NCBI GenBank assembly: GCA_015039365.1
Contig: WION01000134.1
Coordinates: forward strand, 1-64,000
Length of the DNA: 64,000 bases
Reading direction: 5' to 3'
Source: Amanita rubescens
Taxonomy: Eukaryota; Basidiomycota; Agaricomycetes; Agaricales; Amanitaceae
The position numbers were made by a program, and so were the translations under genes. The notes under the pieces were generated by a model. The model was not told where the DNA came from. It made no database searches and saw nothing but the letters and a program-made list of their open reading frames with translations. Of the stretch, positions 4,194 to 39,703 are shown piece by piece. Position 1 is the first letter of the stretch. The number at the start of each line of letters is the position of its first letter.

Positions 4194-5724
<1,531 letters not shown>

Positions 5725-6945: not shown

Positions 6946-8085
6946 TCAACAGTTCAAAACTATCCTATCGCCAATACGGATATCGTAATGAAAATCAGCA
7001 AGTTCGGCGAACATTCTAATGGCTAGTATGCTCTTCTCGTTCCGCGTCTTTTGCGGGCAGTCATCACAGGCAAACACGTAACCTTTTGGCATAATATTGG
7101 TCGAGTGGTCTATCGCCAACGGCACATGTCCCTCTCTCGGACGAGGACACGCTACACCCCTGACTGCATCATGAATGTACGCTCGTAGGACACCAGGCGC
7201 AGGAGGAGGCGGGTCCATAACACGGTCCACAGGCAATTCCTGAGAAAGCAAGGAAATCGCATCACGCAAATCGTGTATGAATTTGAATCCGCTGTGCTTG
7301 AACGGCATCTCTGTTAACCTTGGGATGCAAACCTTTTGCAGAACACAGGGGTGGCGAAGGATTTGGTTGTAGACGTAGTGCAATGTCTCGGCAAGCCCGA
7401 CGTCCAAAGGGTCGCTTTCGTTATCGTCAAAGACGGACAGCTCCTTCAAATTAGTCGTGGAGTGGAGCAGGAAGTCGGTGAATGCAGTTTCGCATGACAA
7501 GAACCAGCGTAGCTGCTCGCCCACCGAACATTGTATCCGATTGTTGGTCACGTCCAAGACCTCAAGACGGGGACATGCAAAGTGGTGTAGTAGGTCCATG
7601 AAGTGACATTGTGCATCGCGTATCTTGATACTTTTCATGGCTTTTAGTTGTTGCCGGTCATAGAGGAGCGGTGGCATGGATTGCTTTGTGCTATATGTTA
7701 TCATTTTGAATTCAATGTTCTGAAGTGAGGTGCACATGGTGAGGACGTGTACGGCGACAAAGAGGTTGACCTTGCCGATTGACAGGCGCGTGAGGGCGGA
7801 GTAATTTGCGATGATTGGTGCGTGAACGGGAGAAATTCTGGGAATAGCGAGGCTCGTCAATTGCCTGCAGGACGAGAAGGATTTGAGGAGTCGAAGGGTC
7901 ATCTCCTCAGCGTCCTGAAGAGAATAGGGCAATGCTGGATCAAACGTGATAAGGATGCCCTGGGCCTCAACTGGAGGACTGCGGAGTAACTTCATACACG
8001 TCGTTGGATCGTTGAGGCAGACATGCAAATCGGCGTATAGGCTTTCCATCCTGCTTTCATGGATAGAATTAGCAATGAAGAACAT
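6946..8085 (-). CDS. Hypothetical LRR-like protein of the fungal F-box family, no F-box visible
   Basis: A single uninterrupted 379-codon frame from ATG 8085 to a stop at 6946. The opening (FIANSIHESRMESLYADL, CLNDPTTCMKLLRS) and regular leucine-spaced blocks (CRQLTSLAIPRIS, YSALTRLSIGKVNL, CPRLEVLDVTNN, TTNLKELSVFDDN) resemble the leucine-rich substrate part of agaricomycete F-box proteins. No F-box is present in frame, and none is visible in the 80 bases up to the TATA element. It is therefore either a member that lost the F-box exon or a stand-alone LRR protein. It lacks a signal peptide and membrane segments and is probably cytoplasmic. The C-terminal CDDCPQKTRNEK resembles a small Cys motif. 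The function is not known. Confidence 0.7.
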   Translation of the reverse strand: MFFIANSIHESRMESLYADLHVCLNDPTTCMKLLRSPPVEAQGILITFDPALPYSLQDAEEMTLRLLKSFSSCRQLTSLAIPRISPVHAPIIANYSALTRLSIGKVNLFVAVHVLTMCTSLQNIEFKMITYSTKQSMPPLLYDRQQLKAMKSIKIRDAQCHFMDLLHHFACPRLEVLDVTNNRIQCSVGEQLRWFLSCETAFTDFLLHSTTNLKELSVFDDNESDPLDVGLAETLHYVYNQILRHPCVLQKVCIPRLTEMPFKHSGFKFIHDLRDAISLLSQELPVDRVMDPPPPAPGVLRAYIHDAVRGVACPRPREGHVPLAIDHSTNIMPKGYVFACDDCPQKTRNEKSILAIRMFAELADFHYDIRIGDRIVLNC

Positions 8086-8165
8086 GAAGCGTCAGTAACG
8101 CACAGAAACGGAGGATAAGCAAGACGAGGAGTGGAGAACAATAATGGCCCAGAAGATCCAGGGCC

Positions 8166-9280: not shown

Positions 9281-10000
9281 TGGTAATGCCCTTCCAAAAC
9301 TTTTCCCACCAATTTAGCTCCACGCTCACGATCACGTGCCAAATCAACCAATTGTGTAATTTTCTTTTCTTAGTAACCCCCGAACTGAAATAACCTCTCC
9401 AGACCGATGAAAATAAGAGTTTCAGGATTAAACTCGTGCAATGACAATGGAACTGTCGCCGGCACAGTTTTTCGAGTCGTCAATGGGATGATATCGCGAT
9501 GACGTTTGGTCATTTGTTCGGCTTCAACTCGCTGCTAAAAGCCAAGAGCTATATGATCCCATTACCAACGTCGAGTATACGACTCTCTCGGGAAAACAAT
9601 CTATTTAGGGACGATTATACCAACTGAAGAACGGAACTCTATATTTAGATGGCGAAAATCCTCGGAGGTCAGGCGTCAAAACTTGCGGGACTCCGTCCAC
9701 GAGCTAATTTTCAGGATGTCAGGCGCGGCGAGGATTGCACCAGTGCAAGAACATGCCGATATTTGTGGTAGACAAAACTTGAAGCTATTCATTGAGCGGT
9801 TAACACGAGAGAACAATTAAAGGTGATATTTCAAAAGTTCGGCTCTACGTTACTAGTAACATCCCAGGGTATATCTATAGCAACCATATATGAAAAAGGC
9901 GGAGATGGATCAAGTGAAGGAAAGTGTTCGCAAAAGATCGTGGAAAGTGAGACAAGCTACACAAGGGTATAAATTCGAAGTCGATGTTTGAGGTGCGATC
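9281..10000. other. Intergenic stretch, upstream of cyclophilin and downstream of gene A
   Basis: No supported gene. Near 9880 it has a TATATG-containing stretch resembling those found 3' of genes B and the His-rich relic, so its right part is probably the shared 3' flank of the duplicated secreted-protein genes. Confidence 0.4.
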
Positions 10001-11201
10001 TTAGGCCTGGCCCGGAGTTTTGCCCGAGGGAGAAACCTGGCCGGGAGTCTTGCCTTGGGGAGGGGCCTCCCCGGGAGGCTTACCATGAGGAGGAGGAACC
10101 TGGCTGGGAGTCGCGCTGGGGGGCGGCGGCGGAATATGGGTGGGAGTTTTGGCGGGGGGGGGAACCTGACCGTGAGGTTCACCTTGGGGATGAGCCTGGT
10201 CTGGAATCATGTCACGGGGAGTAATTTGGCCTGGTGTTTTTCCAGCAGGAGGAACTTGTCCGGGAGTTTTGTCGTGGGGCTGAACCTTGCCGGGGGGTTT
10301 TCCATGGGGAGGGGCCTGGCTGGGAGTGGCGCTGGGGGGCGGCGGAAGAATATGGGTGGGAGTTTTGGCGGGAGGAGGAACCTGACCGTGAGGTTCGCCT
10401 TGGGGAGGAGCCTTGTCTGGAATCGCATCACAGGGGGTAACTTGGTCGGGAGTTTTTCCGCCAGACATTTGTCCAGGAGTCTTATCAGTGGATGGAACCT
10501 TACCCGGAGGTTTGCCATGGGGAGGAACATGGTTGGGAGTTGCGCTGGGGGGCGGCGGAGGAATATGGGTGGGAGTTTTGGCAGGAGGAGGAACCTGACC
10601 ATGGGGTTCGCCTTGGGGAGGAGCCTTGTCTGGAATCACGTCACGGGGAGTAACCTTGTCGGGAGTTTTCCCAGCAGGAGGAAGTTGTCCGGGAGTTTTG
10701 TCTTGGGGAACCTTGCCGGGGGGCTTTCCGTGAGGAGGAGCCTGGTTGGGAGTTGCGCTGGGGGGCGGCGGAGGAATATGGGTGGGAGTTTTGGCAGGAG
10801 GAGGAACCTGACCGTGCGGTTCGCCTTGGGGAGGAGCCTTGTCTGGAATCGTGTCACTGGGAGTAACTTGGTTGGGAGTTTTTCCGCCAGACATTTGTCC
10901 AGGAGTCTTATCAGTGGGTGGAGCCTTGCCTGGAGGTTTGCCACGGGGAGGAACCTGGCCGGGAGTTGCGCTGGGGGGCGGCGGAGGAATGTGGTCAGGG
11001 GTTTTGGAAGGAGGAGGGACATGGTCCAGAGTTTTGCCAGGCGGAGGGACGTAACCAGGAGCTTTGCCAACGGGAGGAACCACGGCGGCAGCAGCTACAC
11101 TGATGAGGGCAAGAGCAACAAGGCTCCCGAGCGCAGTGAACTGCATGAAATGCGTGAGTTGACCATGATCATAATGCTCGCAGCAAAATCTTTACCTTCA
11201 T
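10001..11201 (-). CDS. Cluster gene A: secreted proline-rich repeat protein
   Basis: Preferred model: exon 1 is ATGAAG (11196-11201), intron 11141-11195, exon 2 10001-11140, giving 381 residues. The signal peptide MK-FTALGSLVALALISVAAAA is followed by five tandem units of about 71 residues with motifs HIPPPPPSATP, PHGKPPGK, DKTPGQ, GKTPDQVTP and PPQGEPHGQVPPPAKTP. It ends GKTPGQA. There are no cysteine pairs, membrane segments or known domain. The alternative start, ATG at 11146 (MQFTAL), is inside the predicted acceptor and is disfavoured because genes B, C, D and E cannot use that position. Expected to be secreted, extended and wall- or matrix-associated; the function is unknown. It is the closest relative of gene C by its HGKP and KTPG motifs. 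Confidence 0.8.
10004..11040 (-). repeat. Tandem array of about 215 bp coding repeats in gene A
   Basis: Five in-frame copies, each starting around the SATP/HGKP block and ending at the next PPPAKTPTHI block. Copies differ by scattered substitutions and small in-frame indels (for example MSGG versus LPPAG). The high identity explains why long antisense ORFs appear on the plus strand. Confidence 0.75.
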
Positions 11202-11288
11202 TGTTGTTCGGGGGGTAGAGAATTCGGAAGTCGACTTCGAAAACGGGGGAAGGTGCTTGTCTGAAGAACGAAGGCATAGCCGGAGCCT

Positions 11289-11375
11289 TTTTATACCTTT
11301 TCGACGACATTACAGGCCGGTTGATGTGGATGATGATTTCAGAATTTCGAGATATGGCGTATGGTGCGTCCGCAG
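11289..11375 (-). promoter_or_regulatory. Cluster promoter of gene A
   Basis: TTTATA core (11289-11294, read as TATAAA on the minus strand) 88 bases upstream of ATG 11201, in the context AAAGGTATAAAAAGGCTCC. An imperfect palindrome GTGCGTCCGCAG lies at 11364-11375. The same two elements at similar spacing precede genes B to E. Confidence 0.6.
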
Positions 11376-13055
11376 TTCAAAGGAGGTGTTGTTATGTTAA
11401 CATTCTCACTCGCGGCGTTTGAGGAACTCGCTTTTTTTTTGCCACAAGAAAGTATATCTGCACGCCATGCCGTCACGCCAAGAAAACACTAGTTCCATAT
11501 GGGAGCCGCAGCAATAATGTTGTGCTGGGTATCCAATGTCAGCGCACGACTTGTCGATACCCTCAAGAGAAGTCCGTAAACCGTATCAGTGCGTTTTTGC
11601 ATTAGGCGGAACCAGATGATTCGAAGTCAGCCACTTCAGAAGAGCATAGCCAAATATAGCAACTAACTTCAAGATTGCGAGAGTCAAATTCTACGCGAAA
11701 TACAATGAGGGCCAGTGTACCTTTTCTCGTGAGGATATGGCCGGAAGCTTTACACGAGTGCAAATGTGAATCATACATGCTGTAACATGCGAACCCGGGC
11801 AACAATTCCGGTACCGGCGTTGGACACAGTATAATCAATCTTCTGCGCAGCACTTACTACGTTTTTTAGTCTCTTTATTTTCGGGTTCGGTTTCATGGCA
11901 ACCGCACGCGCGATTGACAAACGCAATGTATCAAAGGGAGAACGAAAGAAGGATCTAGTTCTGAGAGATTGAGGATAAACCACGTTAACAATACAGCATT
12001 GAACATCAAGTTATGCCAGCGGAGTGGTGCGGACTCTCATCTTGGCCTCCATTCAAGCTAACCTTCGAATCCGCTGATCTAAAAAGTCTCGGAAACCTGT
12101 CAACGCCACATGTCATCCGCACGCATCTATTCGTGATACTTCCCCGTATAGAGCACAAAAGAATTTTAACAGTCAAGGATGGAGATTTATGGCAAGACGA
12201 TGAACAAACGGAAACGAACTGTCTTCACGGCTCGTGTCACCCTCCCGCTTGGCTTACGTCTGACGTGAGGGCGCTGGCAGCTACGCGATGAGTGGTCGAG
12301 AAGGCAGCTTTCAAATGCTTCACAACCGGCACATGTGTAGTCAAGGGGCGTAATTCACGATCCTATCGAATTCTATTCCAGACATAGGTATATAGTATAT
12401 GAGGCCGCATATAGTGAAAAAGGAATGCGTGAGGGCAGCAGTCCGTAGGTACTACGGATAGATTCAGGGTAGTATTTGAGTTTGACACTAGGATTGTTCT
12501 TCGAGTAAGAATATTATGGCAGGCGCAGTTTACATTGTACAACTCATTTAAAATTTCCGACCGTTTCCTGATGAGAACGAAGACACTGGTTCTCGTGCGG
12601 TTGTGAAAAAATCATCTTGTCTCGAATTTCCGGCTGCGCTATCCCTGTGGTCGCGGAACAGATGGCTGACTTCAATCACTTGATTCCGTCTAATGCAAAG
12701 ACACAACAATGCGATTTTAAAGCCTTCATTCATAAAATTCCAGGCTGGCATGAATACACGACACAACGCTACTGCTGCGGATGCAACTGATTTCTTGGCG
12801 TGAGGTACGGACTGTCATGTGGTAAATATGGGTTTCTGAAACGGATAATTGATATAATAGCCTCTCCTTTGGACTGCGGATGCAACCTTCGCCATGTCTC
12901 GAAATAGAAGTCACTAGCCATCGCCCACGCTGACCGGTGTGCAACATCGTCGAAAAGGTATAGAGGATTTTGCTTTGCCTTCTTTCTCGGAGAAGCATCT
13001 TGCCTGGATTCTTCAAACGTGAATTCCCCATCTTTGCTAACTCACTGAAATGACA
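11376..13055. other. Intergenic stretch with traces of cluster flanks
   Basis: No intact gene seen. The segment 11885-11960 (GGCAACCGCACGCGCG) resembles stretches near 13415 and 19865. The segment 12330-12420 (ACATGTGTAGTCAAGG, then TATATAGTATATGAGG) resembles the 3' flanks of gene B (14088 onwards) and of the His-rich relic (16195 onwards). These point to duplicated units whose coding part is gone or unrecognisable. Confidence 0.4.
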
Positions 13056-13367
13056 GTGAAGGTACAGCTCTTGCTGTAAACTTTATGAGTGCATTTGTGC
13101 ACTCCATTGCTTTCGGCAGTATCGTTGTCCTCGCCCACATGATACATCCGCGTCACTGCTCTGGAAAAACTCCTGGCCATGTTTCTCCACCTGACAAATT
13201 TCCGGCCTGTATTCCTCTTCGCCCAGATTCATATTCCTCCTCCTAGCACGACTCCCAGCCGGGTTCTTTCTCTCGGAGAGATTCCTCCTCATGATAAATC
13301 GCCAGAAGATGCTCCCGCCGCGGTGAAACTCCCGAACAGGGTTAATACTGGTAGTACCCCGCCGTAA
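13056..13367 (+). pseudogene. Inverted, decayed copy of a proline-rich cluster gene
   Basis: On the plus strand, GTGAAG-GTACAGCTCTTGC at 13056 matches the start and intron donor region of the family, but ATG has become GTG. The acceptor reads GTGCAC instead of a -CAG. The following frame SIAFGSIVVLAH resembles the signal peptide, then GKTPGHVSPPDK matches the A/C repeats. A frameshift near 13230-13240 moves the reading to PPPSTTPSRV, EIPPHDKSPEDAP and a stop at 13365-13367. Start loss, acceptor loss and frameshift together make this a pseudogene, and it is the only family member found in the opposite orientation. Confidence 0.7.
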
Positions 13368-14286
13368 ACGCCAACTTTTAGACTTGTATTGATGCGTACC
13401 TTTATTGATATCTTTCAGCTTCGCGGCAACCGCGCACGTGGCATCAACAGACGTGATGTAACGGAGAAAGAGAAGTCAACCGAACAATAATCTTCGGGAA
13501 AATTGACGTCAGCCATGGTCTGAGGTATAAGCTACAAGCTATCCTGCCTATCTTTGCAAAATCGTCGGTCTTGAATCCGCGTCCTCCGTCATACGAATTC
13601 GCTCTCTTCGTGTCACCCTGTATATATAGAGGGCGAAAGAAGTATTGGTATTCTGGGAGATAGATCAATGATAGAACATGTTTGTCGTCTTGATAAAATA
13701 ATTGTGTATGTATGACTCATCCGACCTTCGGAGTCAAGTCTATATTCAATCGCATTGACAAGTAAACACATCCAGGTGTTGAAGGATGGGAAAATTGCTG
13801 CTTCGCCGATATTGGAACCAACCGGAAAGATGGAACGGAGGATATGAGCGGAAAAATGTCACTGTCAGCGAAGCAGAAGAAGGTATCGAAGTAGGATTTT
13901 GAACTTGGACAAAAACGCAGCAAACGAAAAAGGTCGTGCACAGGCTCTGGGTCAAATATGTGCAAAGCGATAAGATAAGGATGCCAGTGAGGAGATCGTG
14001 GGAACGGAATAAAAGGTTGTTCAACGTTCAATGTTCGTTCGCGAAGCAAACGCGTTTGGTGGTCGATAAAACAATTTCAAGTAAAGAATTCGCACATGGA
14101 TAGTCAAAGGGATCTGATTCAAAATTCCCGTTCGAAGTCCTATACTACTACAGAGGGCATATACAGCATCTATATATGGAATAGGAGTGATGAAACGGGT
14201 CGGGACGAATGAGTAAAGAAACGCATCGATTCAAATATGGGGGTAGGTGGAGCGTTAAGCCGAGAGGTTTGCCACGGCGGTGATGA
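13368..14286. other. Intergenic stretch between the inverted relic and gene B
   Basis: No supported gene. Two overlapping minus-strand ORFs (13717-14049) show no domain or splice pattern. The right end (14088-14200) holds the 3' flank shared with the His-rich relic, including a CATCTATATATGGAATAGG stretch. Confidence 0.4.
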
Positions 14287-15339
14287 TCACTGTTGGTCAG
14301 CAACTGCATCGTCACGAGGAACATGGTGATGGTGGTGATGTTTATGCTCGGTAGTTTCCTCGTCGCGGGCGACATGGTGGCGGTCGTGGTCGTGGTCGTG
14401 TTTGTGCTCGGCAGTTTCCTCGTCGCGGGCGACATGGTGGTGGTGATGGTGTTTGTGCTCAGCACCTTCCTCGTCACGGGCAACATGGTGGTGGTGATTA
14501 TGTTTATGCTCAGCAGTTTCCTCGTCGCGGGCGACATGGTGGCGGTGGTGGTGGTGGTGGTCATCGTCGTCGTGTTTATGCTCAGCGGTTTCCACTTCGC
14601 GAGGAACATGGTGGTGGTGATGTTTGTGCTCGGCAGTTTCCTCGTCGCGGGCGACATGGTGGTGGTGATGGTGTTTGTGCTCAGCACTTTCCTCGTCACG
14701 GGCAACATGGTGGTGGTGGTGATGTTTATGCTCAGCAGTTTCCTCGTCGCGGGCGACATTGTAGTGATGGTGGTGTTTATGCTTAGCGCCTTCCTCATCA
14801 CGGGCAACATGGTGGTGGCGGTGGTGGTCGTGTTTATGCTCCGCGGATTCCTCGTCGCGAGCAACATGGTGATGGTGATGGTGGTGTTTATGCTCAGCGC
14901 CTTCCTCGTCACGGGCAACATGGTGGTGGTGGTGGTCGTCGTCGTCGTGTTTATGCTCCGCGGTTTCCTCGTCGCGAGCAACATGGTGGTGGTGGTGGTC
15001 GTCGTGTTTATGCTCCGCAGTTTCCTCGTCGCGAGGAACATGGTGGTGGTGTTTATGCTCGGCGCCTTCCTCGTCGCGGGTAACATGGTGGTGGTGACGA
15101 TGATGATCATGGTCAACAACTGCGTCATCGCGAGCAACTATATGGCCGTGAGGCTTTCCATGGCCTGGAATTTCGTGATGAGGAGGGACATGGCCCGGGG
15201 CTTTGCCATGGTCAGGAGCGGGAGCGGCAGCAGCGACGCTGATCAGGGCAAGAGCAACGATGCTAGTGAGCGCAGTGAACTGCACAAATGCATCAGTTGA
15301 CCATAATCGTAATGTTTACAACAAGAGCTTTACCTTCAT
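14287..15339 (-). CDS. Cluster gene B: secreted histidine-rich repeat protein
   Basis: Exon 1 ATGAAG (15334-15339), intron 15280-15333, exon 2 14287-15279; 332 residues. At the acceptor the sequence is GTGCAG, so the ATG used for a naive start of gene A does not exist here and the mini-exon start is needed. Signal peptide MK-FTALTSIVALALISVAAAA, a short linker with APGHVPPHHEIPGHGKPHGH, then 14 units of the type VARDEETAEHKH followed by 4-8 His and some Asp, ending ADQQ. Such His/Asp-rich units suggest binding of zinc, nickel or copper, but this is inferred from composition only. The linker shares HGKPHGH and PRD/ARD with genes A and C, so B looks like an amplified derivative of the same ancestral repeat. 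Confidence 0.8.
14300..15110 (-). repeat. Tandem array of His-rich RDEE units in gene B
   Basis: Fourteen units of about 54-66 bp, each encoding (A/P)RDEExAEHKH plus a variable His/Asp run. Variation is mainly in the length of the CAC/CAT run, as expected from replication slippage. One unit reads PREVE. Confidence 0.75.
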
Positions 15340-15427
15340 TGTTATGCAGCGAGTAAGAAGTCAAGAGTCCGGATTCGAAAAAAAGGCAAGAAACTTGTCT
15401 GAAGAATGCAGCCATAGTCGAGGCCTC

Positions 15428-15548
15428 TTTATACCTTTTCGAATACCTTTTCAACGACTGTAAAATCCAAACACGCCCCGGTAAGTCTGGACGATGACCC
15501 CTGTCATGTCAGCATTTTTTCGAACTACGGCATGTGCTGCATCCGCAG
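15428..15548 (-). promoter_or_regulatory. Cluster promoter of gene B
   Basis: TTTATA at 15428-15433 in the context GAAAAGGTATAAAGAGGCC, about 90 bases upstream of ATG 15339. The palindrome-like CTGCATCCGCAG is at 15537-15548. Shared with the other cluster genes. Confidence 0.6.
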
Positions 15549-16403
15549 TCGAGAAGATCCCACTCGTGGCGTTTGAGGAGTCCCGAGAGACTATGTATAC
15601 CTACCATTATGCCGTCATCATGTGAAAGTATAGGAGCTGTGGCAGGAATAACGTTGTATCGGATATTCAAGGTAGTGATAATTTGAAGAAACGACAGCTT
15701 CAAGTGGCGCTATTGCGCTGGTATTCGTCCGGGCAGTGACAGAATGGGTTATGTGACCGTCCTTCTATATATAGCCTAGCTATATTTGTATATATTTATA
15801 TTTATATTTCTGGACCCTACCCTATTGCAGCCTGTCTCCTGTTGCTCGCTCGTATTATTCCAACGCAACGTCGCTAACTCGCGAAGCTGGTTAGCCATGG
15901 TTTGAGCTATTGCGGAGAAGAGACGAGTGGCGTGGATTCTTATCAGAATTGTGTCGCGCTCCATATGGGCCCGGTACCCGACCGGGAGAGCAGATCCTGC
16001 GTCGCAGGCGTTGACAGCTTTAGACAGCTTTCAACTTCCTCGAGTCCTTTTTTATCCTTCTCCGTTCGCACGGCTAAGCTCAGTTGCTACTATTTTTAGA
16101 TTGCGTGCCAATCAACAATGATTGAACAGGTGTCAGCCCCTGTCGCGCTCCAACAAGGTAAGTTTCCGACAAAAGAACTTTCGACAAATGCTCGTATATG
16201 TGCAGTCAAGGCAATCTGGTTCAAAAAATTGTATCAATTTTCTTATTCTACGTCTTACTATACACGTACAGTATATATAGCATCTAGACATAGAATAGGT
16301 AGAGTGAAAAATAGATCAAGGCAGTCAAGTCTACTGGATGGGCATAAAGGAAGAAAGTTACATAACGATTCAGATTTACATGTTGCTATTTTGAGACGCG
16401 GTT
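15549..16403. other. Intergenic stretch between gene B and the His-rich relic
   Basis: No supported gene. The left part is gene B upstream DNA. The right part (16190-16330) has the GTGCAGTCAAGG and CAGTATATATAGCATC motifs of the shared 3' flank. An AT run TATATTTGTATATATTTATA lies at 15781. Confidence 0.4.
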
Positions 16404-16775
16404 TCAAGCCTGGACTGGGTTTGCCTCATTGCGGGGGACATGGTGGTGACGGAGGTGCTCAGTACTATCGGCGCTAGCCTCGCGGCGGGGGATATGGTGG
16501 TGGTGATCGCAGTTGTGGTCACTGGACTCATGGTCAGCATTATCGGCACTTGTCTCGTCGCGGGCAATATGGTGGTGGTGGTGGTCGCGGTGACGATCAT
16601 GGTCATGATGACGGAAATGGTCGGCACTATTGGCACTTGCCTCGTCGCGGGCAATATGATGATCGCGGTCGCGGTGGTGGCCGTGGTGACGATCATGGTC
16701 GGCACTATTGGCAGGTGGTGGTGGTCGCAGACTCGCAGTGACGATCGTGGTCACGATGACGGGCACTATGCCGGT
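16404..16775 (-). pseudogene. Truncated His-rich cluster gene fused to distal promoter DNA
   Basis: The minus strand encodes units ARDEASANSADH, ARDETSADNADH, RREASADSTEHL and VPRNEANPVQA with His runs, clearly related to gene B. It ends in -QA like genes A and C. There is no core promoter, ATGAAG exon or signal peptide. Instead the repeat region abuts, at about 16775, DNA (GTGTGGACGATGAC, then TATGTGCTGCGAAC at 16820) that in gene B lies upstream of the palindrome. A deletion from distal promoter to the start of the repeats explains this. An ATG-started ORF to 16835 includes that promoter DNA and is not a genuine N-terminus. Confidence 0.65.
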
Positions 16776-17499
16776 CAGTGTGGACGATGACTCTGGTCTC
16801 TCCATTCGACAAATGGTATGTGCTGCGAACGACACCGAGGAAGTAATATTATGAGTTCACTTCGTTCAAAAATCTGTGTGTAGCAGCGATAACGTCGGTG
16901 ATACGTGGAATCGGGATCAGAGGTTTAGAAGTCGATGTCGAGAATAGAACACATTTTTTTGGACTGGATGCGCATCTGTCCCACCTAAAGTCGTAGGCTT
17001 TCGGGATGCTGTGTCTCGATCCGGCACAGTATCACATTGGACGTACCAACATAAATTTCGAGATCCGATAATAAAATTGCGTGATCTGTTGATGCTAGCA
17101 TGTCTGAATACAGCCAATATTGCCACCTGGCGCGGGTGGTTAGTCAGCCGAATATGGATGAGAGTGACAATGAGCTTGCATGCTTTGGGAACTTATTTAA
17201 ACCCAACGTAGGAAGTCACCTAATAGAGGCGAGATTAGCCTGCAATAAGTGGAAGTGGTGCGGCTGTCGTTATAAATGTAACGATAGATGTGCGCTACAT
17301 GGGGAGATGGGACGGCTGGGCTGAGAGAGAGCTGTCGACGCCTATGTGGGCAGTTTGGACCCGCAATGGGTTTGTATGAGCTGGACCGGCCGGTGCCAAA
17401 AGCTCGGCTCGGCTCCAAGAAGAAGCGACTATCCTGGAACGCCGTGAGCTGTTTCTTCGCATCCTCTTGATCTCTCAAAATAATGAGTCGTCAAGTAGC

Positions 17500-17850
17500 T
17501 TAGCTTGCTAACGTGAGTGACTGCACTTGTGTTCTTTCTGCCCTCCGAGCGCCCAATCAGTTTTCCCAGGGAATGCTGACACAAATTGATCATATCTAAG
17601 TGAAATGGAGATTTATGTAATTGTTGGAGAACATACCTGGTGCCAATGACCATAATCCAAAGCCTCTTGTGTCGATAACAACACCCAATCATCTTGTTCA
17701 CAAAACGGCATTTGCTGCGCGCACAATGGAGGAGAGACTATTACGGAATTGCGTTAGTGAAGACCGTATTTGCCGTAAGGCTTGCCCACAGTACAATAAT
17801 AATGTAACGTGTTTTACTCCGGAGGGCTGGATGCCGATGTGCCGATTACG
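17500..17850. repeat. Segmental duplicate, copy 1 (orphan cluster promoter)
   Basis: Resembles 22240-22620 in order and orientation: TAACGT-GAGTGACT, TTCTGCC-TCC, TTCCCAGG-AAT, TGCTGCGCGC-CA at 17713-17725, ATTTGCCGTAAGGC, and CGTGTTTTACT-CGGA. It contains the palindrome element but no downstream family gene. The long plus-strand ORF starting at 17621 runs through it and is not kept in the other copy. Confidence 0.55.
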
Positions 17851-17859
17851 GGTGTTTAG

Positions 17860-20455
17860 AATCCAAGGTAAGCAGAGAGCCATTTTTCAACATTCTGGTC
17901 GCGCACTTAGTTGCAAACCATTAGCGCATTGTGCATGTATGAGTGAGACTCTGAGAGTTGCGCTTCGGAACGGGGCGAAATCATTAGTCAGCGCTTCAAC
18001 CAACCGTGGGAGTATCGATGATATTAAAAGACTTACTAAATCGAGTAAGAATATCCTGCCGAAACTACTACCAGCTCCTCGGACACGTGTGTGTAGTTTC
18101 TCCCTGAACAAGTTCTCGGCATTAACTTCGGTACATTCACCTTCGTCAACGATTGGACCTATCATGTCCAAAAAAAATTCAAGCCGCTTTGCCGAGACTT
18201 ACATTAAGTTACGGCCCGACATTTGGGGCCCCACTCACGTCACGTATCTGTTCATTTTGGCTTACTTCGCGACGCCAACCCATCTAAAGTCAGGTTCCTT
18301 TTATCGGCGCGTGCCTTTGCTATTCAAAGAGAATTGACTAACTAGCTGTTTTTGTGCAAGTTCAATTATACTTGGTGTTGAAAGGTATACGACGTTCAAT
18401 GGCCACTGTATGCTCAATGATCTAGTTCCTTCGAGGCCCAAATCAGATTTCACAGAAAATGTCAAAGCTGTCAAACTTCTCAGCTTGTTCCCGATGTGCC
18501 GACATGAACTGTCAGGATCATAAGGTGGAGGTATGAGAGCGGCATTACGCTACTATGTGCCGTGTACGTGTTCAGGTTCAACTACATTTAGCCTCGAGGC
18601 TACCTTTGTCACGTATATTTATAGACCGCGTTGATTTATCTGTCCATAGGTATCTAAAGCGGAGATCCGGAGAAGCTCGACGGATCCATCATGCACGGCT
18701 CATCCCATCTTTCAGCTTGGATTGTATAACTTTTCTCTCAATAGGGTCAGCGAGCATCTCGCGGTAATTAATCACGAAGTATCACGCGCCGTGACATTTT
18801 TCTCCGGTTCTTCTCCAATGCACAAATGTAGGTGATCAACTGCGGACCATTATTGTGGTATGCCCGTGTTCTTCGCAATGATTTGGAATTATAGCATTCG
18901 TATGACTGAGTCTCACATTAGATTGACTCATCACGTATGATCGTTGTTGGCACCCCCAAAAAAACTTATCCGGAGGGCAATGTCATGTCCAAACTTGATG
19001 AAAGTTGGCGCTTTGGTTGCCGGATATAGACAGATCGGAAACCTGTTCCATTTTTTCCTTCCTCCGTGACTCGCGCTATATACAACTCACGGTGACAATC
19101 GCAGGAGTCGGAATCATTTTTCTGTGAGTTTTGGATTCTACTTTTGGCTTAATTGACTTTAAGTGGTAAATATGTCTTTCAGCAGCATCAGTAGGAGCAT
19201 ACACTGTACACATAGACGAACATTTCGGCCGAGTCCTTAATCATGTCTCGACGACTATTTTGGGTATGCTTCGAAGTTTACAGGCTCGATTTCATATACA
19301 GTAGGTCCCACTTTTCTATTGCTCTTTTTGGGTGATGTCCTGAGAGAGAATTGAGCTTGGTCTTCCCTTGCGTGGGTCTTGGAGTCGAGAGTTATTCAAG
19401 TGCGGGCCCTCGGAAGTCGTAGATGGTTTGTCAGGCAAGTCGTTGCGACATATATGCCATACGCGCGTCGCTTCGATGGCCCTGTCAGTGCGTTTCTCCT
19501 GCTCGCCCATTTTTGCTTAATACGTGCGCAACCAGAGCACCGTCATGTGGTTCATGTTTCTGCAATTCTTTTCTATATTGTGAACTAGAAAAGACACCTA
19601 CGCTGATACGGCCCCTAGCTAAAGAATATGTGAAGGAGATCAAGGAAAGAAAAGAGCAGAACGTTGTCCAGCGCCTCTCGCCGTCATACGTAATCAAGCG
19701 AAGAATTAAATGGTCAGAAGCTTTACGTTCTAGATGCGAATGATACACGATACTGAAGCGAAGAACGTTTGTGATATTGAACGTGTAAAACCTGCTGCGC
19801 AGTTTATCTAGTTACTCTACAATGGATGACAGATAAGATTCAAGATTTGGGTCATCTTCGTGTTTCTGCTTCGCGGCAGCCGTGAGCGTGGATTAAACTT
19901 ACAAGGGGAGCCAAAGAATGAACTGATAGTCTGAGTTATGGGCGACAAGGCATGCCAACGACGAGGAGATATTTTTAGGATGTGTGGATAAAAAAAGACT
20001 TGGAAGCGGAAAGTCGTCGGAACGCCACTGATATATTACCCGCAAATGTGCATCACGCGGGAACTTTTTCGTGAGCCAATTCGCCCTCCAGTTTTACCGT
20101 GAACTGCAGTGTGGAGTGAGAATGGATGGCAGACTTTCGAGGGAGGGCAACAACTCGCCGAGGGCGGCGAAATCAGAATTTGATACAGGTGTCAGAAAGT
20201 GCACTGTGAGGCTTGATCAAATGCCACAAACAACGATCTCATTACATTCTTCCTCAGAACATCTCATGGTCTTAGATGATGAGTGTTGGCAGAATTACAT
20301 GCTCTCGTATCATGAGATTACAAAAAAAAAAGATTGCAGTAAATGGAACCAAGATCATGAACGATCATATGTCAAATAAGGTGGGAGAATATAGCGATGG
20401 ATAAAGCTACTGGTCCATACAAGTCTAAGAATTTGGTTCTGGGGCGGAGTCTTAT
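17860..20455. other. 2.6 kb without a supported gene
   Basis: Only short ORFs without domains or consistent introns. Near 19860 (GCTTCGCGGCAGCCGTGAGCG) it resembles 11885 and 13415, another sign of duplicated cluster flanks. A TATACAGTAGGTCCC stretch at 19296 resembles a pogo-type terminus, but no partner end was found. Confidence 0.4.
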
Positions 20456-21544
20456 TTAAGCCTGGCCAGCATGGGGTGGAACCTTCCTGTGGGGCTTCCC
20501 ATGGGGAGGAACATGGTCGGTGTCGCGGGGCATAATATGGCCAGGAGTCTTCGGAGGCGGAGGAGGAACATGACCATGAGGTTTGCCATGGGGAGGAACC
20601 TCATCAGAAGCGTCATCGCGGGGGTTTATGTGACCAGGAGTCTTTGCAGGCGGAGGAGGGGCATGGCCATGAGGCTTGCCATGGGGAGGAACCTCATCCG
20701 AAGTCTCGTCGCGCGGGTTGATGTGGCCAGTCGGAGTCTTCGGAGGCGGTGGAGGAACATGGCCATGAGGCTTGCCATGGGGAGGAACCTCATCAGAAGC
20801 GTCGTTGCGCGGGTTGATGTGGCCGGGGGTCTTTGCATGGGCATGGCCATGAGGCTTACCGTGGGGAGGAACCTCGTCCGAAGTATCGTCGCGCGGGTTG
20901 ATGTGGGCGGGAGTTTTCGGAGGCGGAGGAGGAGCATGGCCACGAGGCTTGCCATGGGGAGGAACCTCGTCCAAAGTCTCGTCGCGCGGGTTGATGTGGC
21001 CAGGAGTCTTTGCAGGTGGAGGAGGAACATGACCGTGAGGTTTGCCATGGGGAGGAACCTCATCAGAAGTGTCGTCACGCGGGTTGATGTGGGCAGGAGT
21101 CTTCGGAGGCGGAGGAGGTGTATGGCCACGAGGCTTGCCATGGGGAGGAACCTCGGCCGAAGTCTCGTCGCGCGGGTTGATGTGGCCAGGAGTCTTTGGA
21201 GGCGGAGGAGGAGCATGGCCATGAGGCTTGGCATGTGGAGGAACATCATCCGAAGTCTCGTCACGCGGGTTTATGTGGCCGGGAGTTTTGGCGGGAGGAG
21301 GAGCATGGTGGGGTGGTTTTCCATGCCGGGAAACCTCGCCAGAAGTTGCATCACGGGGAACAATATGACCAGGAGTTTTGGCATGCGGAGGAACATGTCC
21401 AGGAGCTTTACCAACAGGAGGAATCCCGGCGGCGGCAGCGACACTGATGAGAGCAAGAGCAACGATGCTACTGAGAGCAGTGAACTACATAAATGCGTCA
21501 GTTGACCGTGATCATACTTTTTACAGCAAGAGTTGTACCTTCAT
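20456..21544 (-). CDS. Cluster gene C: secreted His/Pro-rich PPHGKP repeat protein
   Basis: Exon 1 ATGAAG (21539-21544), intron 21485-21538, exon 2 20456-21484; 344 residues. At the acceptor the bases are ATGTAG, so reading from that ATG would stop at codon 2; with the mini-exon start the frame is fully open. Signal peptide MK-FTALSSIVALALISVAAAA, then GIPPVGKAPGHVPPHAKTP, then ten units of about 31 residues: INPRDETSDEVPPHGKPHG, H(A/V)PPPPPKTPGH. One unit is shortened to HAHAKTPGH. Ends HAGQA. No cysteine and no domain known. Predicted to be secreted; the His spacing could bind metal or polysaccharide, which is inference. It shares KTPGH and HGKP with gene A. Confidence 0.82.
20500..21420 (-). 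repeat. Tandem array of about 93 bp units in gene C
   Basis: Ten in-frame units of the type INPRD-x5-EVPPHGKPHGH-PPPPPKTPGH. Alternating A/V after HGH and PPK/PAK suggests that two-unit blocks were duplicated together. Confidence 0.72.
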
Positions 21545-21624
21545 TGTTATTCAGCGAGTAGGAATTCGACTTCGAAAACGAGCTAAGACGCTTGTCTGAA
21601 GAACGAAGGCAAAGTGGAGGCCTC

Positions 21625-21718
21625 TTTATACCTTTTCGACGACGTTACACATGCCAAATTCAGTAGACAAAAACTTCTAGTTGTCTCATCCGTGAAATGA
21701 CATATGCTGCGCCCGCAG
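21625..21718 (-). promoter_or_regulatory. Cluster promoter of gene C
   Basis: TTTATA at 21625-21630 (AAAAGGTATAAAGAGGCC), 81 bases from ATG 21544, with the palindrome CTGCGCCCGCAG at 21707-21718. Identical in layout to gene D. Confidence 0.62.
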
Positions 21719-22239
21719 CATTACAATTAGCGGCTAGAAAAGCGGGATATCGCGATAATATCGTTTCAGAGGATCATCCCTGAAGGAGCTAAATCCAGAC
21801 TTCAAAACCTGAACGGTAGTAATTTTGACTGGCAGATGGGTGGAGTCGGCGCACTAACTGCCGTCCGTTCCTGGTGCGCTTATTCTAAACCATCCGGCCA
21901 TATTGGCCACTTGCTTGAGCTACAGAGCACGATAGGGCGTCATCTTACGGCTGTCGACAATACCGGGTCTTGACCCTAGGGTGTTTTGACGAATGTCCAC
22001 TACGATGAACGGGCGCAACTAAGACACATATTTCGGCAACAGGTCCGGCAGGACGTTCTTTAGGAGTTTCCAGGAGTGTGAGAGCCATGGCTATCAACCT
22101 CGTCTTGTAAAAAATCGATTGCGCAATTTTTTCTTCGTTTTGTTGCCTAACCAAAACTGTCAGCGAAATTGAGTTTTCGAAACACGCCGCTGTTAGCGGT
22201 TGCGAGATCATCCCCTAACCTGCACAAAAACGTTCAGAG

Positions 22240-22620
22240 GTTGTTAACGTTGGTGACTCGGGTTTGTCTTGTTCTGCCTTCCAAACGCGCACATCCGTGT
22301 TCCCAGGAAATCCCGGCAAAAGTCGACATATCTATTATCAAGGAAGAGTTAGCACAAGAATGGATCTAAAGGAATGACATACCGTGTGATCAGGATAGTC
22401 CGAAACATCTTTAATACCTCGACTACGATGACAGAAACTCCTAGTTGTCTCATTCAAACAACGATTGCTGCGCGCGCAGTCCAATAATTATCCCCGGTGC
22501 GGTCGAGAAGCTATGATTTGCCGTAAGGCCAGCGCAACGTGCCAAGACCATCGGCGGGGTAGTAATTTCGTGTTTTACTGCGGAAGCGCGACGATTAAGA
22601 GAGTGTGTTCAAGCGGAGAG
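22240..22620. repeat. Segmental duplicate, copy 2 (orphan cluster promoter)
   Basis: Matches 17500-17850. Carries a perfect CTGCG-CG-CGCAG palindrome at 22468-22479, preceded by CTAGTTGTCTCATTC as upstream of gene C (21678). No family gene lies next to it on the left; the nearest is C. Confidence 0.55.
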
Positions 22621-23147
22621 CGTTTCACAGCATAGCTTGAATATTCTTGACGTGTGTTTCCAGGCCATTAGTGACTAGTGAGTACTAGTGAGCAGTATAT
22701 GTGACAGCGAAAATTGCTGGCGGCGTGCCAGTGATTAGTCATCCTCACCATCGTGGGAGAGAGTAAACAAACGTGGCAGTGACGGAAGTTGATAACCGAA
22801 ATGATCGAGGAAGGATCGTCAATCATCGATCATCCCGCCATGTGGGCACATTTTCAAAAATAGGAAAACTCGGTTACGGAACACCGCATAGACTACCTTT
22901 GGAGTTGGGCGGAGAGGTCGCGTAATGACCTTGTAGGACGCAAAAATAAAGATTGCTTCAAAAGAGACAGACGAAGCACCCGAGGATAAGACCGAGAGGT
23001 CTGATTGTCACACAGGCAGGTAGTCATGAACACAACAGGCAATGCACAATTATTTCCATCTCGCATACTCTGATCCGGTTACATCAGACTACGTGAAAAA
23101 GACAACGAAGTAGTAAGTGTTCTATATGATGCGACCACTCCAGTACT
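22621..23147. other. Intergenic stretch 3' of gene D
   Basis: No gene supported. Contains a short local duplication GTGACTAGTGAGTACTAGTGA at about 22671 and poly-purine stretches. Confidence 0.35.
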
Positions 23148-23574
23148 CTAGTTCTTGCAAGAGTCGTTTTGGCCAAGGTCGCAAGTCTTTCCATCCTGCT
23201 GGCAGGTGTAGAGGTTGCCAACGATACAATTGTCGGGGTTGCCCACTGTGCCGCAGAAATTACGTGGCGATCCGTTGCACGTGCAAGCAGACTGAACGCA
23301 TTGCTACAATCGACTCAGAACTCATATCACGAGGGTGAGCAATTGATTCTTACATCATTAGTGGTACCAGTGTTGGGATTCTGGTTGGTAGTAGTTTTGC
23401 CGGACCCTTGGTTCTGGGCGGGGGTATTGGGGTTTGGGTTCTGGGTTTGTACCCCGGCGGCGGCGGCGACACCAACGAGGGCGAGCGCAATGATGCTACC
23501 GAATGCAGTGAACTGAACAAATGCGTGAGTTGACTATGGTCATATAAAGTTTACAGCAGGAGCTGTACCTTCAT
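23148..23574 (-). CDS. Cluster gene D: small secreted protein, Asn/Gln-rich linker plus eight-cysteine domain
   Basis: Exon 1 ATGAAG (23569-23574), intron 23513-23568, exon 2 23354-23512, intron 23304-23353, exon 3 23148-23303; 106 residues. No ATG exists at the acceptor (GTTCAG), so the mini-exon start is the only one available. Signal peptide MK-FTAFGSIIALALVGVAAAA, linker with TQNPNPNTPAQNQGSGK and NQNPNTGTTND, then a C-terminal domain with eight Cys spaced C-x4-C-x-C-x7-C-x8-C-x7-C-x6-C-x7-C, containing CTCNGSP, NFCGTVGNPDNC and KTCDLG. Both exon joins are phase 0. Size, signal peptide and cysteine pattern are those of an effector-like or small secreted protein; I do not recognise the domain. 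It matches gene E. Confidence 0.78.
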
Positions 23575-23659
23575 TGTTTTATAGTGAGTAAGGTTGAGAA
23601 GTCGAGTTCGAAGTCGAGGAAAGGTGTTTTGGTGAGGACTGAGGGTAAATCGAGGCCTC

Positions 23660-23760
23660 TTTATACCTCCCCGCCCGATACATGCGTCAAGCTACATCGA
23701 CCACCATTCCTCGTGATCTCTTCCAAAACAAGAAAAAAACGGCATTCGCTGCGCCCGCAG
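23660..23760 (-). promoter_or_regulatory. Cluster promoter of gene D
   Basis: TTTATA at 23660-23665 (GGTATAAAGAGGCCTCG), 86 bases upstream of ATG 23574, and the palindrome CTGCGCCCGCAG at 23749-23760. Confidence 0.62.
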
Positions 23761-25585
23761 TCCCGAGGAGGGACTACTATCATAATTAGGCGTAAGAGAA
23801 TAAATTCGGTAATGTGTGGTAATGCGTGGAGACCGGAGGTTTGAAAGTCGATCGTTGACACGTGGTATGAAGTACCGTATACAACTGTAGGCTTTTGGAA
23901 TTGGTGGTAGATGGCATAGTGTCGACGTGTCGTGTGAGTGGATCATAGCCGGGGGCGACCGACCACCTGGATATGTTTGAGTGTCCTTTACGATGACAAA
24001 ATGTTTGTTGCGGCATTACTTAAGTCTGAAAGGATATGCTCTCCGGGATCCTTGTGAGGTGTAAGCATGACGCTATAATGGGCGACCTTGGCTGTGAGCT
24101 TGGTCTTGCGACAAATCTCTTCGCTGTTTTGCAGCACGGTTGGCCGCTTGTAGGAGAAGTGAACCGGGCGCAAACTTTCCTCCGATATGCTCCTGGTCCA
24201 TTAGGAAATGTACACTTCTCATCTAAATGTCAGGGTGGTCAGTCACCAGGGGCGAAAAAGTGACACAAACCATCTATAGATGCTGCCATTTGTTAAGATG
24301 CTGCGGCTCTGATGCAGATAAACATACCTTAGGTAAAGCCCTTTTGGTGAAACCATCGCGTTGCTACATGTCAACTGTCCGAGTGGCCCACGTGGCCAGA
24401 GCAGAGATGAAATGGACTGCGGACACACTCATATCACCCTCAAGCGCTCAGCAAAGTTCGGTTGTGTCGCCCGTGAGTTAGCCTGCTTCTCTCCGGATCT
24501 TCATTTGTTCCCTGTCGCCCGCTACTTTACTCCAATAGCTGGTTTCCTTCCATGCCTCGAGTCGCGTGATGGCCGGTTGGGAAATAAAGCACCAATCACT
24601 GGCATGGCACTAGGAGAGAATGAAATCAACGCTTCACCGCCATCCGCATAAATTGAGTCATGTTCGGCCATTGCCAAATACAGCATACTTTCCCACCCGC
24701 ACCGGAGAGCGAACAGCACTTGGTTAGAGTTCACGCGCTCTAATTCCGGGGTGGCGACGCGTTCGAGCTCGGGGACGATCTCACCAAAAGTGAGGTGGAC
24801 GTCTGCAGGTCCCATCGACTGACGGCTCAGAGACGAGCCATTTAACATGTTCCGCCCAGCGTACTACGTGAACGAGAGGAGAACAGTATGGAAAGAAGCG
24901 AGGAACGCTGTGTGAGACCCGGTAAGCCCTGCTTCCTCTATTACTTCATATCTGATGGGCTACATCATATAGGCATATAGGCACAGTTGATGGACATTGA
25001 AGAGAGGAATTGACCTAAAGACGACGGGGACACCACCAGAGGCAAGTGCATATCGCTCGTTTACGACTCTAAGTCGCATTTCATCAATCTAACATTTATT
25101 GACCAATGACCAGCCGTGGAGAGTATCGCAAAGAGAGCGCAATGCATCGAATCCACTACGTATTCGCATTTTGGTGGCATGGCAGCATGTCCTACGCTCA
25201 TCGTATGCGCGAACGCAAGGGTTGTTGCTGCCACTGGCGGCGGCGCTTGCGGCAGCCTTGAATGGAGAGGCAGTATCATGGATCGGTTTAGGGTAGGAGT
25301 GGGAGTAGCAGCTTAATGTTCACGCTGGTTCACGACGGGCCACGGTGGGTCACGGGAGTCGTTGTGTCGTTTATGTCGATATGGACCGTGCCACAAGCTT
25401 CTGAGGCTGCCGTAAATTTTGGTTCTAAAATGAACGCTTTACGAGCCATGCGCAATCATCTGTCTCAAATTGTCCAATCTCGATACGTCGTACTACGGGG
25501 AACAAAATATGGGTACATCACACTACAGGGAACGCACAACAGAACGGAACATAGAACAAATTTCACACGACAACAACTTCAAAGC
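23761..25585. other. Intergenic stretch between genes D and E
   Basis: No supported gene. It includes a fragment (24570-24720) resembling 32430-32640 (see repeat entry). A 108-codon minus-strand ORF at 24522-24848 overlaps that fragment and has no domain. Confidence 0.4.
24565..24725. repeat. Dispersed repeat, copy 1
   Basis: Shares TGGGAAATA, ATGGCACTAGGAGAGAA, AACGCTT, CCGCCAT and ACCGGAGAG-GA-CAGCAC, in order, with 32430-32595 on the same strand. Probably a degraded mobile-element fragment; no termini were found. Confidence 0.5.
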
Positions 25586-26180
25586 TCAGTACCTCCTGCA
25601 AGTGAACTTGAAACCAAGGTCACAAGTCTCTCCACCTCTGAGACATTCGTAGAGGTGATCTTTAATACAATGTTCGAAGCGGGGTTCGAAGCGGGTTTCC
25701 TGATGGCCGCAGAATTCGTGCGGCCTTCCATCGCATCTGCAACTGGACCTCACGCACTACAACCACATATTAAAAATCAAATCACGGGCATAGTTGAGCT
25801 ATTCTTACGTGTTTGGGAAAGCCAGGGTGTCCAGGAAAGCCTGGAGGGCCGGGATGTCCGGGTCCAGGAGGGCCTGGGGGGCCGGGATGACCAGGGCCAG
25901 GAGGGCCAGGAGGGCCTGGGGGGCCGGGATGACCGGGGCCAGGGGGGCCTGGAGGGCCGGGATGACCAGGGCCAGGGCCGGGAGGGCCGGGGTGGCCGGG
26001 TCCACCGGGGCCGGGAGGGCCAGGAGGGCCAGGCGGGAAGGGTTCACGGGCCGCAATGGGACCAGCGGCGGCTGCGACGCCGATGAGAGCAAGAGCAATG
26101 ACGCTACTGAAAGCAGTAATCTAGGCAAATGCGTAAGTTTACGACTGTCATAAAGGTTACGGCATGGACTCTACCTTCAT
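25586..26180 (-). CDS. Cluster gene E: secreted collagen-like protein with eight-cysteine C-terminal domain
   Basis: Exon 1 ATGAAG (26175-26180), intron 26121-26174, exon 2 25809-26120, intron 25757-25808, exon 3 25586-25756; 162 residues. Signal peptide MK-ITAFSSVIALALIGVAAAA, short linker GPIAAREPF, then about 70 residues of Gly-Pro repeats built as GP-GHP-GPP-GPP, that is collagen-type G-X-Y triplets with a regular two-residue interruption, ending GFPGHPGFPKH. Exon 3 encodes the gene D cysteine domain: C-x4-C-x-C-x7-C-x13-C-x7-C-x6-C-x7-C, with CRCDG, EFCGH and GETCDLG. If the second intron is not removed, a stop follows ten residues later at 25782, so the splice decides whether the Cys domain is made. 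A 12 bp local duplication (RFEP/RFEH) explains the longer C4-C5 gap. Triple-helix formation is possible but unproven. Confidence 0.78.
25809..26045 (-). repeat. Collagen-like Gly-Pro coding repeat of gene E
   Basis: About 24-33 bp units (GGC-CCT-CCT-GGC-CCT-GGT-CAT type codons) giving GPP, GPG and GHP. The plus-strand frame is also open (25316-26086) because of the repeat and is not a gene. Confidence 0.7.
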
Positions 26181-26258
26181 TGTTATGAGAAGTTGAGGAT
26201 TCGAATTCAACACAGAGGCAAGAAATTTGTCTGTTGAGTGAAGCCGAACCAAGGCCTC

Positions 26259-26351
26259 TTTATAGCTTTTCGACGACGTTGCACAGAATGAATATGTGAT
26301 GGTGATTCCTAACTTCCTCGTTCGAGAAACGGTATGTCTTGCGGCCGCTGG
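26259..26351 (-). promoter_or_regulatory. Cluster promoter of gene E
   Basis: TTTATA at 26259-26264 (AAAAGCTATAAAGAGGCC), 79 bases from ATG 26180. The palindrome is degenerate here: CTTGCGGCCGCTGG at 26338-26351. Confidence 0.55.
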
Positions 26352-39000: not shown

Positions 39001-39703
39001 CCGCCTTGACATTCTGTAATGAAAGGGCAATTAGCATAAAGCTCGCGCAATACGTCGTAAATGGATAAATCGGGATAAGAAGCTAATACATACCGGGACT
39101 CATGTGATACACGCTGCCGGTTCTGAATTCGTCACTCATCTTCTCCGTGGTCGCGAGGCCGAAATCAGTGATCGCCACCCTAAGACCACTGTCAAAGCAT
39201 AGAACGTTCTCCGGTTTCAAATCCCTGTGATAGATGCCCAGGTTATGACAGTATTCCACAGCGTCTAGCAGCTGTAAGAAGATATGCCTGATTAACTCAT
39301 CATTGCCGAGGTACTTGCAGTTGCGTAAGATCTGCGTGAAGAGATCGTGATCTGGGGCATAGTCGAGAATGATGTAGGTGACGTGATGCTGTTCGATTAC
39401 CCTGTGGAGTGTAACAACTCCGGGGTGCACCGAGGCAAGTTGGTGCAGTGCGATTTCACGGATGTGGACGTGGCGCTGGCGGGGGCTCGCGTTGGGGGGC
39501 GAGATTAGGCATTTTACGGCGTACGACTTTAGGTGGCCCGTCAAAGAGAGCGGGTCAATGTCGATGGCACGGTATACGACGCCGTACCCGCCGACGCCGA
39601 GGACCTCGACTAGCTCCAGGGAATGTCCGTCGATGAGAGTACCAAGAGGAGGGTGAACGGGACTCGGGGCGGCGCTGGGATATTTGTTGTTAGACATCTT
39701 CAC
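36063..39703 (-). CDS. Ran1/Pat1-like serine/threonine protein kinase with long disordered tail
   Basis: Two exons: 39094-39703 and 36063-39013, phase-1 intron; 1186 residues from ATG 39703 (a second ATG two codons later is equally possible). Kinase domain at about residues 28-310: glycine loop GVGGYGVVY (36-44), AVK with Lys 64, HRDLKPEN (159-166), DFGLA (180-184), [14 protein letters not shown] in the activation segment, [19 protein letters not shown], ending [14 protein letters not shown]. This matches the fungal Ran1/Ksp1/Sks1 class that links nutrient state to growth and meiosis. The remaining 870 residues are Ser/Pro-rich and acidic, with a poly-Ser run (GTC/AGC repeat near 38525-38560) and a basic C-terminus. 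The stop codon at 36063 overlaps a GTGAGT, so an extra 3' exon cannot be excluded. Confidence 0.88.

Follow-up and report, generated by a model that had tools for sequence, protein, structure and literature searches.

The proteins known as KEPs, among them Rep1, Hum3 and Rsp1 of Ustilago and MiSSP8 of Laccaria, consist of a signal peptide followed by near-identical units with regularly placed arginines, as the excerpted texts of their descriptions have it (PMC6339444; PMC7329392; PMC9769878; PMC4617103). The Gp-HYP apoplastic effectors of Globodera pallida combine conserved regions with central tandem repeats that vary in number, sequence and order (PMC4617103, in part), the DELD proteins of Piriformospora indica are a species-specific, His/Ala-rich secreted family of a root-associated basidiomycete (PMC3192844, in part), and effector-like small secreted proteins (SSPs) of ectomycorrhizal fungi are apparently species-restricted as well (excerpts of PMC7550596). 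The last source also names Amanita rubescens, the blusher, an ectomycorrhizal mushroom. Here, we analyzed 64,000 nucleotides (nt) of its genome (GCA_015039365.1, positions 1 to 64,000 of contig WION01000134.1, below called the window), which are part of a contig of 135,341 bases in an assembly of 75.7 Mb and 786 contigs. Five genes for secreted proteins, A to E, occupy exactly positions 10001-26180 and all lie on the minus strand. We consider it likely that they are members of one A. rubescens SSP family that has grown by duplication of genes together with their promoters and in which the spacer of the protein is the unstable part.

The family shares traits with each of these systems and departs from all of them. 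Like the KEPs, the repeat-built members place near-identical units with a regular Arg behind a signal peptide; however, the units lack dibasic KR, RR or KK and have a single (A/P)-R-(D/E) instead, and relatives carry a Cys domain without repeats. The Gp-HYP proteins are a nematode system of apoplastic effectors, whereas the variation in A. rubescens was seen between contigs of one assembly, its branches differ strongly in composition and the family is known here from sequence alone. B is His-rich like the DELD proteins, but it lacks the RSIDELD end (B ends in VADQQ), has 332 amino acids (aa) instead of 101-135 and is built from acidic ARDEE units. The likeness to ectomycorrhizal effector-like SSPs lies in predicted secretion, apparent restriction to one species and, for D and E, size: if an SSP is defined as a protein of less than 300 aa with a signal peptide, as in the available part of PMC10705924, D (106 aa) and E (162 aa) are small, whereas A (381 aa), B and C (344 aa) are larger. 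The family is coherent and falls broadly among the secreted repeat proteins of plant-associated organisms (PMC4617103, in part), and its range of tails on one gene start is uncommon. It was not named in the titles and abstract openings searched, a scope without supplements and subscription journals.

Gene start and tails of the five cluster genes

Each of the five genes possesses a two-codon exon 1 (ATGAAG), an intron 1 of 54-56 nt and a near-identical signal peptide at the beginning of exon 2, and a TATA block and a palindromic element lie upstream. The signal peptide was recognized by inspecting the translations, which follow the pattern MK[FI]TA–S––ALAL––VAAAA, and on the strength of this putative peptide secretion of the products is nearly certain. 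The five-gene cluster proposed in the initial annotation was found in full, with all five cassettes (the shared 5' units) on the minus strand and start codons at 11201 (A), 15339 (B), 21544 (C), 23574 (D) and 26180 (E), the stop codon of A ending at 10001. A consists of Pro-rich 71-aa (213-nt) repeats without a Cys domain, the mature part of B of units of approximately 17 aa of the type VARDEETAEHKHHHHHH, and C of 31-aa units; D and E have an Asn/Gln/Thr spacer and a collagen-like GPP spacer, respectively, followed by an exon with eight cysteines. A public A. rubescens record, P0001 (F5887DRAFT_1002043, 106 aa), is 99% identical to D and begins with MP instead of MK; we think that this model missed the two-codon exon, because the public models P0002-P0005 begin with MK. 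Both P0001 and P0005, the model of a further member, H, in which the Cys exon is missing, deviate from the family plan and look mis-spliced.

An nhmmer model made from the five cassettes recovered each of them, as it must by construction, with E-values of 1.8e-90 to 4.2e-101, and independently yielded a sixth, degraded cassette, F (1.1e-45), and three upstream-only pieces (3.3e-7 to 8.3e-6). In cassette F the start ATG is replaced by GTG, the acceptor AG of the intron is lost and a PGHV-like remnant lies downstream; a His-rich stretch at 16379-16750 looks like a deleted copy of B. The plan of start, intron and signal peptide was the same in 15 aligned sequences, among which M2 and M3 probably represent a single locus. 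In a multiple alignment of 10 representatives from four branches, cross-branch identity was 0.88 for the TATA block, 0.73 for the 21-base palindromic element, 0.71 for intron 1, 0.70 for the 5' untranslated region and 0.65 for the signal peptide at third codon positions; the interval between element and TATA block reached 0.47 with 27% gaps. Unrelated 54-nt pieces aligned likewise reached 0.36 (0.31-0.42 in 40 sets) with 42% gaps, and thus the likeness of the cassette parts survives proper alignment. Two further candidates were rejected. Special conservation of intron 1 was not observed, as its identity of 0.72 compares with 0.67 for intron 2 (six sequences), and a hairpin in intron 1 (ACAGC…GCTGT) was 78.6% paired as compared to 78.0% after shuffling, a value equalled by 245 of 500 shuffles, while its covariation was equalled by 146 of 500. 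Of the near-identical 5' parts first reported, the cassette common to A to E is therefore retained, whereas intron 1 is unexceptional and the palindrome imperfect.

The tails had been described as unrelated, which holds for the spacers of D and E (no similarity, 898 of 1000 shuffles scoring as well, with a tested stretch of D that extends into its intron 2) but not for the cluster as a whole. The regions directly after the signal peptide are homologous among A, B, C and J, a paralogue on another contig (C343), as none of 1000 codon shuffles matched the observed likeness in any of the six pairs; no such likeness connects these four to D or E, except for a marginal one between B and E (17/1000). 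D and E, in turn, share a phase-0 intron 2 (50 and 52 nt, respectively) at the same place, immediately before the eight-cysteine exon, and these exons are homologous. Remnants of a Cys exon were not detected at A, B or C: six Cys-domain queries from different branches matched only D and E below an E-value of 0.1 in the window. For A to C a single earlier search was insufficient, having missed the diverged Cys exons of the family members M and O. The 3' flanks of the five genes show little or no similarity (the best scores were 19 for A-B against a shuffle maximum of 17, and 17 for D-E against 15).

Profile comparison with solved structures gave 18 weak matches, the best of which (E-value 0.037) were alphavirus envelope glycoproteins and were judged to be chance among Cys-rich sequences; an AlphaFold model of the Cys family (four sequences) was unusable, with a mean predicted local distance difference test score of 40.6 and a predicted template modelling score of 0.16. 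Long open frames run antisense to A, B, C and E on the plus strand (9992-11215, 14287-15297, 20429-21502 and 25292-26083) and are probably by-products of repeat composition.

Family members across the genome and their promoters

A pattern spanning start, intron and signal peptide (ATGAAGGT...AG[AT]T[CT]ACTGC) matched 75 times in the genome and never in the reversed control. Merging near-identical contigs by hand reduced the matches to 19 loci, one of which (on contig C92) looks like chance and another (C50:42123) is broken, so that we estimate approximately 16-18 cassette loci, some of which may be alleles; diverged members are missed by exact patterns. The members range from a signal peptide with a Cys domain to long repeat proteins without one. 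Contig C28 and the left part of the window overlap in opposite orientations, and beyond this overlap C28 holds three further members, E2, H and G; if the overlap represents one locus, their distances from window position 1 would be approximately 5, 13 and 17 kb to the left, respectively, and their orientation would be opposite to that of A and B. G has almost no spacer (public model P0004, which like P0005 is a family model on C28), the spacer of H has 24 aa and those of the D type have 29-35 aa with abundant N, T and Q or P. M and O have short spacers, while the collagen-like ones of E and E2 reach approximately 85 aa (113 in another contig copy) and 105-120 aa, respectively. This series modifies the earlier interpretation. 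Duplicated secreted proteins do share a 5' unit, but a free-standing cassette does not hold up: the unit belongs to a gene family, in which other members have a Cys-rich exon 3 and several are no repeat proteins.

With at most two mismatches allowed, the 21-base element was found at 43 places in the genome and at none in the reversed control, and each of the 43 precedes a family exon on its own strand by no more than 600 bases; some family promoters hold two copies, 92 or 104 bases apart. The TATA block pattern gave 49 matches against none in the control, which were not assigned gene by gene. A shorter core of the element occurs 12 times in the window, as compared to 2.4 expected, and four of these places lie away from any cassette (5139-5154, 12775, 50008 and 57506). 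The palindrome reported in the initial annotation is present upstream across the cluster, although it is imperfect and its core differs in E. Judged from these common promoter blocks, co-regulation of the family by a shared regulator is plausible.

The range of the family was judged from searches of a protein collection: four of four matches in a first search were from A. rubescens, another returned five A. rubescens proteins and two metagenome fragments, and for gene C none of 8000 scored candidates reached an E-value of ≤ 0.001. One fragment, P0006, begins with MKV… and continues across what seems to be the family's intron 1 into its signal peptide; the other, P0007, has this signal peptide too. 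The family plan is therefore present in at least one further sample. Based on these word-based searches the family is apparently lineage-restricted, and we read it as a lineage-restricted, fast-changing SSP family.

Taken together, we propose that the family expanded via duplication of whole genes together with their promoters. Its members have a common plan: a promoter with palindromic element and TATA block precedes the two-codon exon 1; exon 2 opens with the signal peptide, in many cases followed by a short segment that terminates in Ala/Pro-Arg, and closes with the spacer; intron 2 then leads to the eight-cysteine exon 3. The spacer is the unstable part. It may be nearly absent or hundreds of residues long, presumably through slippage or unequal recombination, and in the branch of A, B and C it constitutes the entire mature protein, with the Cys exon gone. 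The positions of genes, promoter parts and remnants are listed in Table 1.

Table 1. Positions of the cluster genes, their promoter elements and cassette remnants in the window.
Feature	Position	Strand	Details
Gene A	10001..11201	-	Exon 1 11201-11196 (ATGAAG), intron 1 55 nt, exon 2 11140-10001
TATA block of A	11282..11306	-	
Palindromic element of A	11355..11375	-	4 mismatches to family form
Degraded sixth cassette F	12843..13180	+	nhmmer E 1.1e-45
Gene B	14287..15339	-	Intron 54 nt; 332 aa
B promoter	15420..15548	-	TATA block 15420-15444, palindromic element 15528-15548
B-like His-rich remnant	16379..16856	-	Beside upstream-element piece; without TATA block or signal peptide
Lone upstream-element piece	17658..17745	-	E 3.3e-7; without cassette
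Gene C	20456..21544	-	Intron 54 nt; 344 aa; 31-aa units of type INPRDETSDEVPPHGKPHGHAPPPPPKTPGH
C promoter	21617..21718	-	TATA block 21617-21641, element 21698-21718
Upstream-element piece or extra copy	22424..22484	-	E 8.3e-6; approximately 0.7 kb upstream of C's own element
Gene D	23148..23574	-	Exons 23574-23569, 23512-23354, 23303-23148
Palindromic element of D	23740..23760	-	
Gene E	25586..26180	-	Exons 26180-26175, 26120-25809, 25756-25586
E promoter	26251..26350	-	TATA block 26251-26275; diverged element near 26330-26350 (CAGCGGCCGCAAGACATACCG, 5 mismatches)

Repeat length, constraint and possible products

Up to 11 near-identical contig versions cover the region around the cluster, which come from haplotypes and probably redundancy of the assembly. 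Their identity is mostly 97-100% with frequent frameshifts, which suggests uncollapsed haplotypes and unpolished long reads. Across these copies, lengths were measured between the intron 1 acceptor and a fixed point, and the repeat tracts indeed varied, as had been anticipated in the initial annotation. A measured 1125 nt in four of 11 copies, 1124 nt in one and 897-913 nt in six, a copy of 912 nt being exactly one 213-nt unit shorter than 1125. B had 966 or 967 nt in four of 10 copies, 1058-1059 nt in three and 1106-1110 nt in three, and C 989-1014 nt in six copies. The lengths of E were 309, 393, 309 and 298 nt and those of E2 414, 369 and 402 nt, whereas D, which is without tandem repeats, had 347 nt in four of four copies. 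The 700 bases upstream were 97-100% identical between copies, except for C (88-100%, many gaps), and the copies of E with 309 and 393 nt differ despite 100% upstream identity.

The ratio of nonsynonymous to synonymous substitution rates (dN/dS) in intact copies amounted to 0.47 in A, 0.16 in C and 0.21 in each of two contig pairs of B, whose counts coincided. For E2 it was 0.24 and 0.19, approximately eight codons of intron 2 being included in both comparisons. Differences were in excess at third codon positions, for example 10/13/46 by codon position in C. Because of these six values, the repeat residues look constrained even though the lengths differ. The same numbers, together with the unit motifs retained in B, C and J, make it quite improbable that the genes are mostly decaying, functionless duplicates with low-complexity tails as by-products of slippage. 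Decay would account for the degraded cassette F and the fused His-rich remnant inside the cluster and for the frameshifts seen in roughly every second contig copy; however, since upstream identity is near 100% (lower and with many gaps in C), the frameshifts of A, B and C are probably errors of the long-read assembly.

The most specific hint at function comes from Arg. When units were anchored on other residues, Arg was kept in every unit of B (14) and of a longer B allele (17), of C and a C allele (9 each) and of J (6), and the following residue was acidic in all of these B units, in 8/9 of C (D/E) and in 5/6 of J (D). Moreover, E, E2, H, M and O each have a lone site of the Ala/Pro-Arg type (AAR, APR or VAR) shortly past their signal peptide. 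A rather unlikely but specific reading of this pattern is that A, B and C, as well as J, are multi-peptide precursors cut after Ala/Pro-Arg and before Asp/Glu by a kexin-like Golgi protease, which would release peptides of approximately 17 (B) and 31 (C) residues, while in E, H, M and O the same site would mark the end of a propeptide. For some agaricomycete KEPs produced in Pichia, the available part of PMC9769878 reports single-Arg cleavage. Contrarily, A retains the site in just two of its four units, the D, G and K types are without it, and common descent alone could maintain the motif. Identity as canonical KEPs was rejected: at least three near-identical units are present in A, B and C, though not in D, and the signal peptide is found in all five, but the published definition includes KR, RR or KK between units (PMC6339444, in part), and dibasic sites are absent from A to D, a single RR being located near the C-terminus of E. 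The precursor reading supplements the duplication of SSP genes rather than displacing it. Combined with the proposed family plan, it would mean that one promoter and signal-peptide unit serves both disulphide-rich effectors and, after repeat takeover and loss of the Cys exon, polyproteins cut at single (A/P)-Arg sites, which would release many acidic His- or Pro-rich peptides in numbers varying between haplotypes; this scenario as a whole is unlikely.

About as likely as processing is that the proteins remain uncut and serve at full length as structural or metal-binding proteins of the extracellular matrix, the Pro-rich and collagen-like parts contributing to wall or coat and His-rich B binding metal, a role that is possible without being probable. 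The composition is in line with this (35% His in mature B, 32% Pro in A, 28% Pro and 13% His in C, 30% Pro and 23% Gly in E), and His-rich secreted families are known from root fungi, such as the DELD proteins of P. indica (PMC3192844, in part). However, none of A to E matched a Pfam domain at the cut-off, and the collagen match of E (PF01391) scored 15.6 bits where 27.2 are needed. For the SSP family as a whole, the secreted products would have an extracellular role at the hyphal surface or the host interface.

Several observations weigh against the preferred explanation, i.e., an expanding SSP family with an unstable spacer and shared promoters. Copies open to the expected end number only 5/11 for A, 5/10 for B and 2/6 for C, and frameshifted copies may possibly be real pseudogenes; collapse of tandem repeats during assembly could yield length differences of unit size. 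The restriction to one lineage rests on word-based searches of a protein collection whose coverage of other Amanita species is unchecked. Regarding the promoter, conservation of the palindromic element does not exceed that of intron 1 (0.73 vs. 0.71), and the TATA block alone stands out; H lacks a TATA where the other genes have it, and the element could be aligned to J, M1 and M3 only with gaps, an ungapped match being absent at up to six mismatches. For these reasons, common descent accounts for much of the promoter likeness, and the result for the element reflects it in part.

Neighboring sequences and significance of the family

Other features of the window lie outside the cluster. A protein kinase gene (36066-39874, minus strand) has its kinase domain split over two open reading frames (Pkinase, E-values 2.9e-31 and 2.9e-6), and the nearby stretch 39200-39700 is present on five contigs at approximately 100% identity. 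The exons of a PFKFB-type gene (50678-52463, plus strand) match 6-phosphofructo-2-kinase (PF01591) and histidine phosphatase (PF00300), and a tandem repeat of approximately 119 bases follows at 53918-54331 (3.6 copies, 91% matches). An open reading frame of 381 aa (6949-8091, minus strand) shows a sub-threshold leucine-rich repeat match, and part of it has four more copies at 93% identity on contigs C215, C190, C535 and C382. No tRNA or Rfam match was found in the window.

With spacers that are almost absent, short, long or the sole remainder of the mature protein, this one genome offers a graded series of steps by which a Cys-rich SSP could become a repeat protein. Since several near-identical versions of each gene have been assembled, change in repeat length and constraint on amino acids can be measured here directly. 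If the Arg sites are indeed cut, the definition of fungal repeat precursors would widen beyond dibasic sites.

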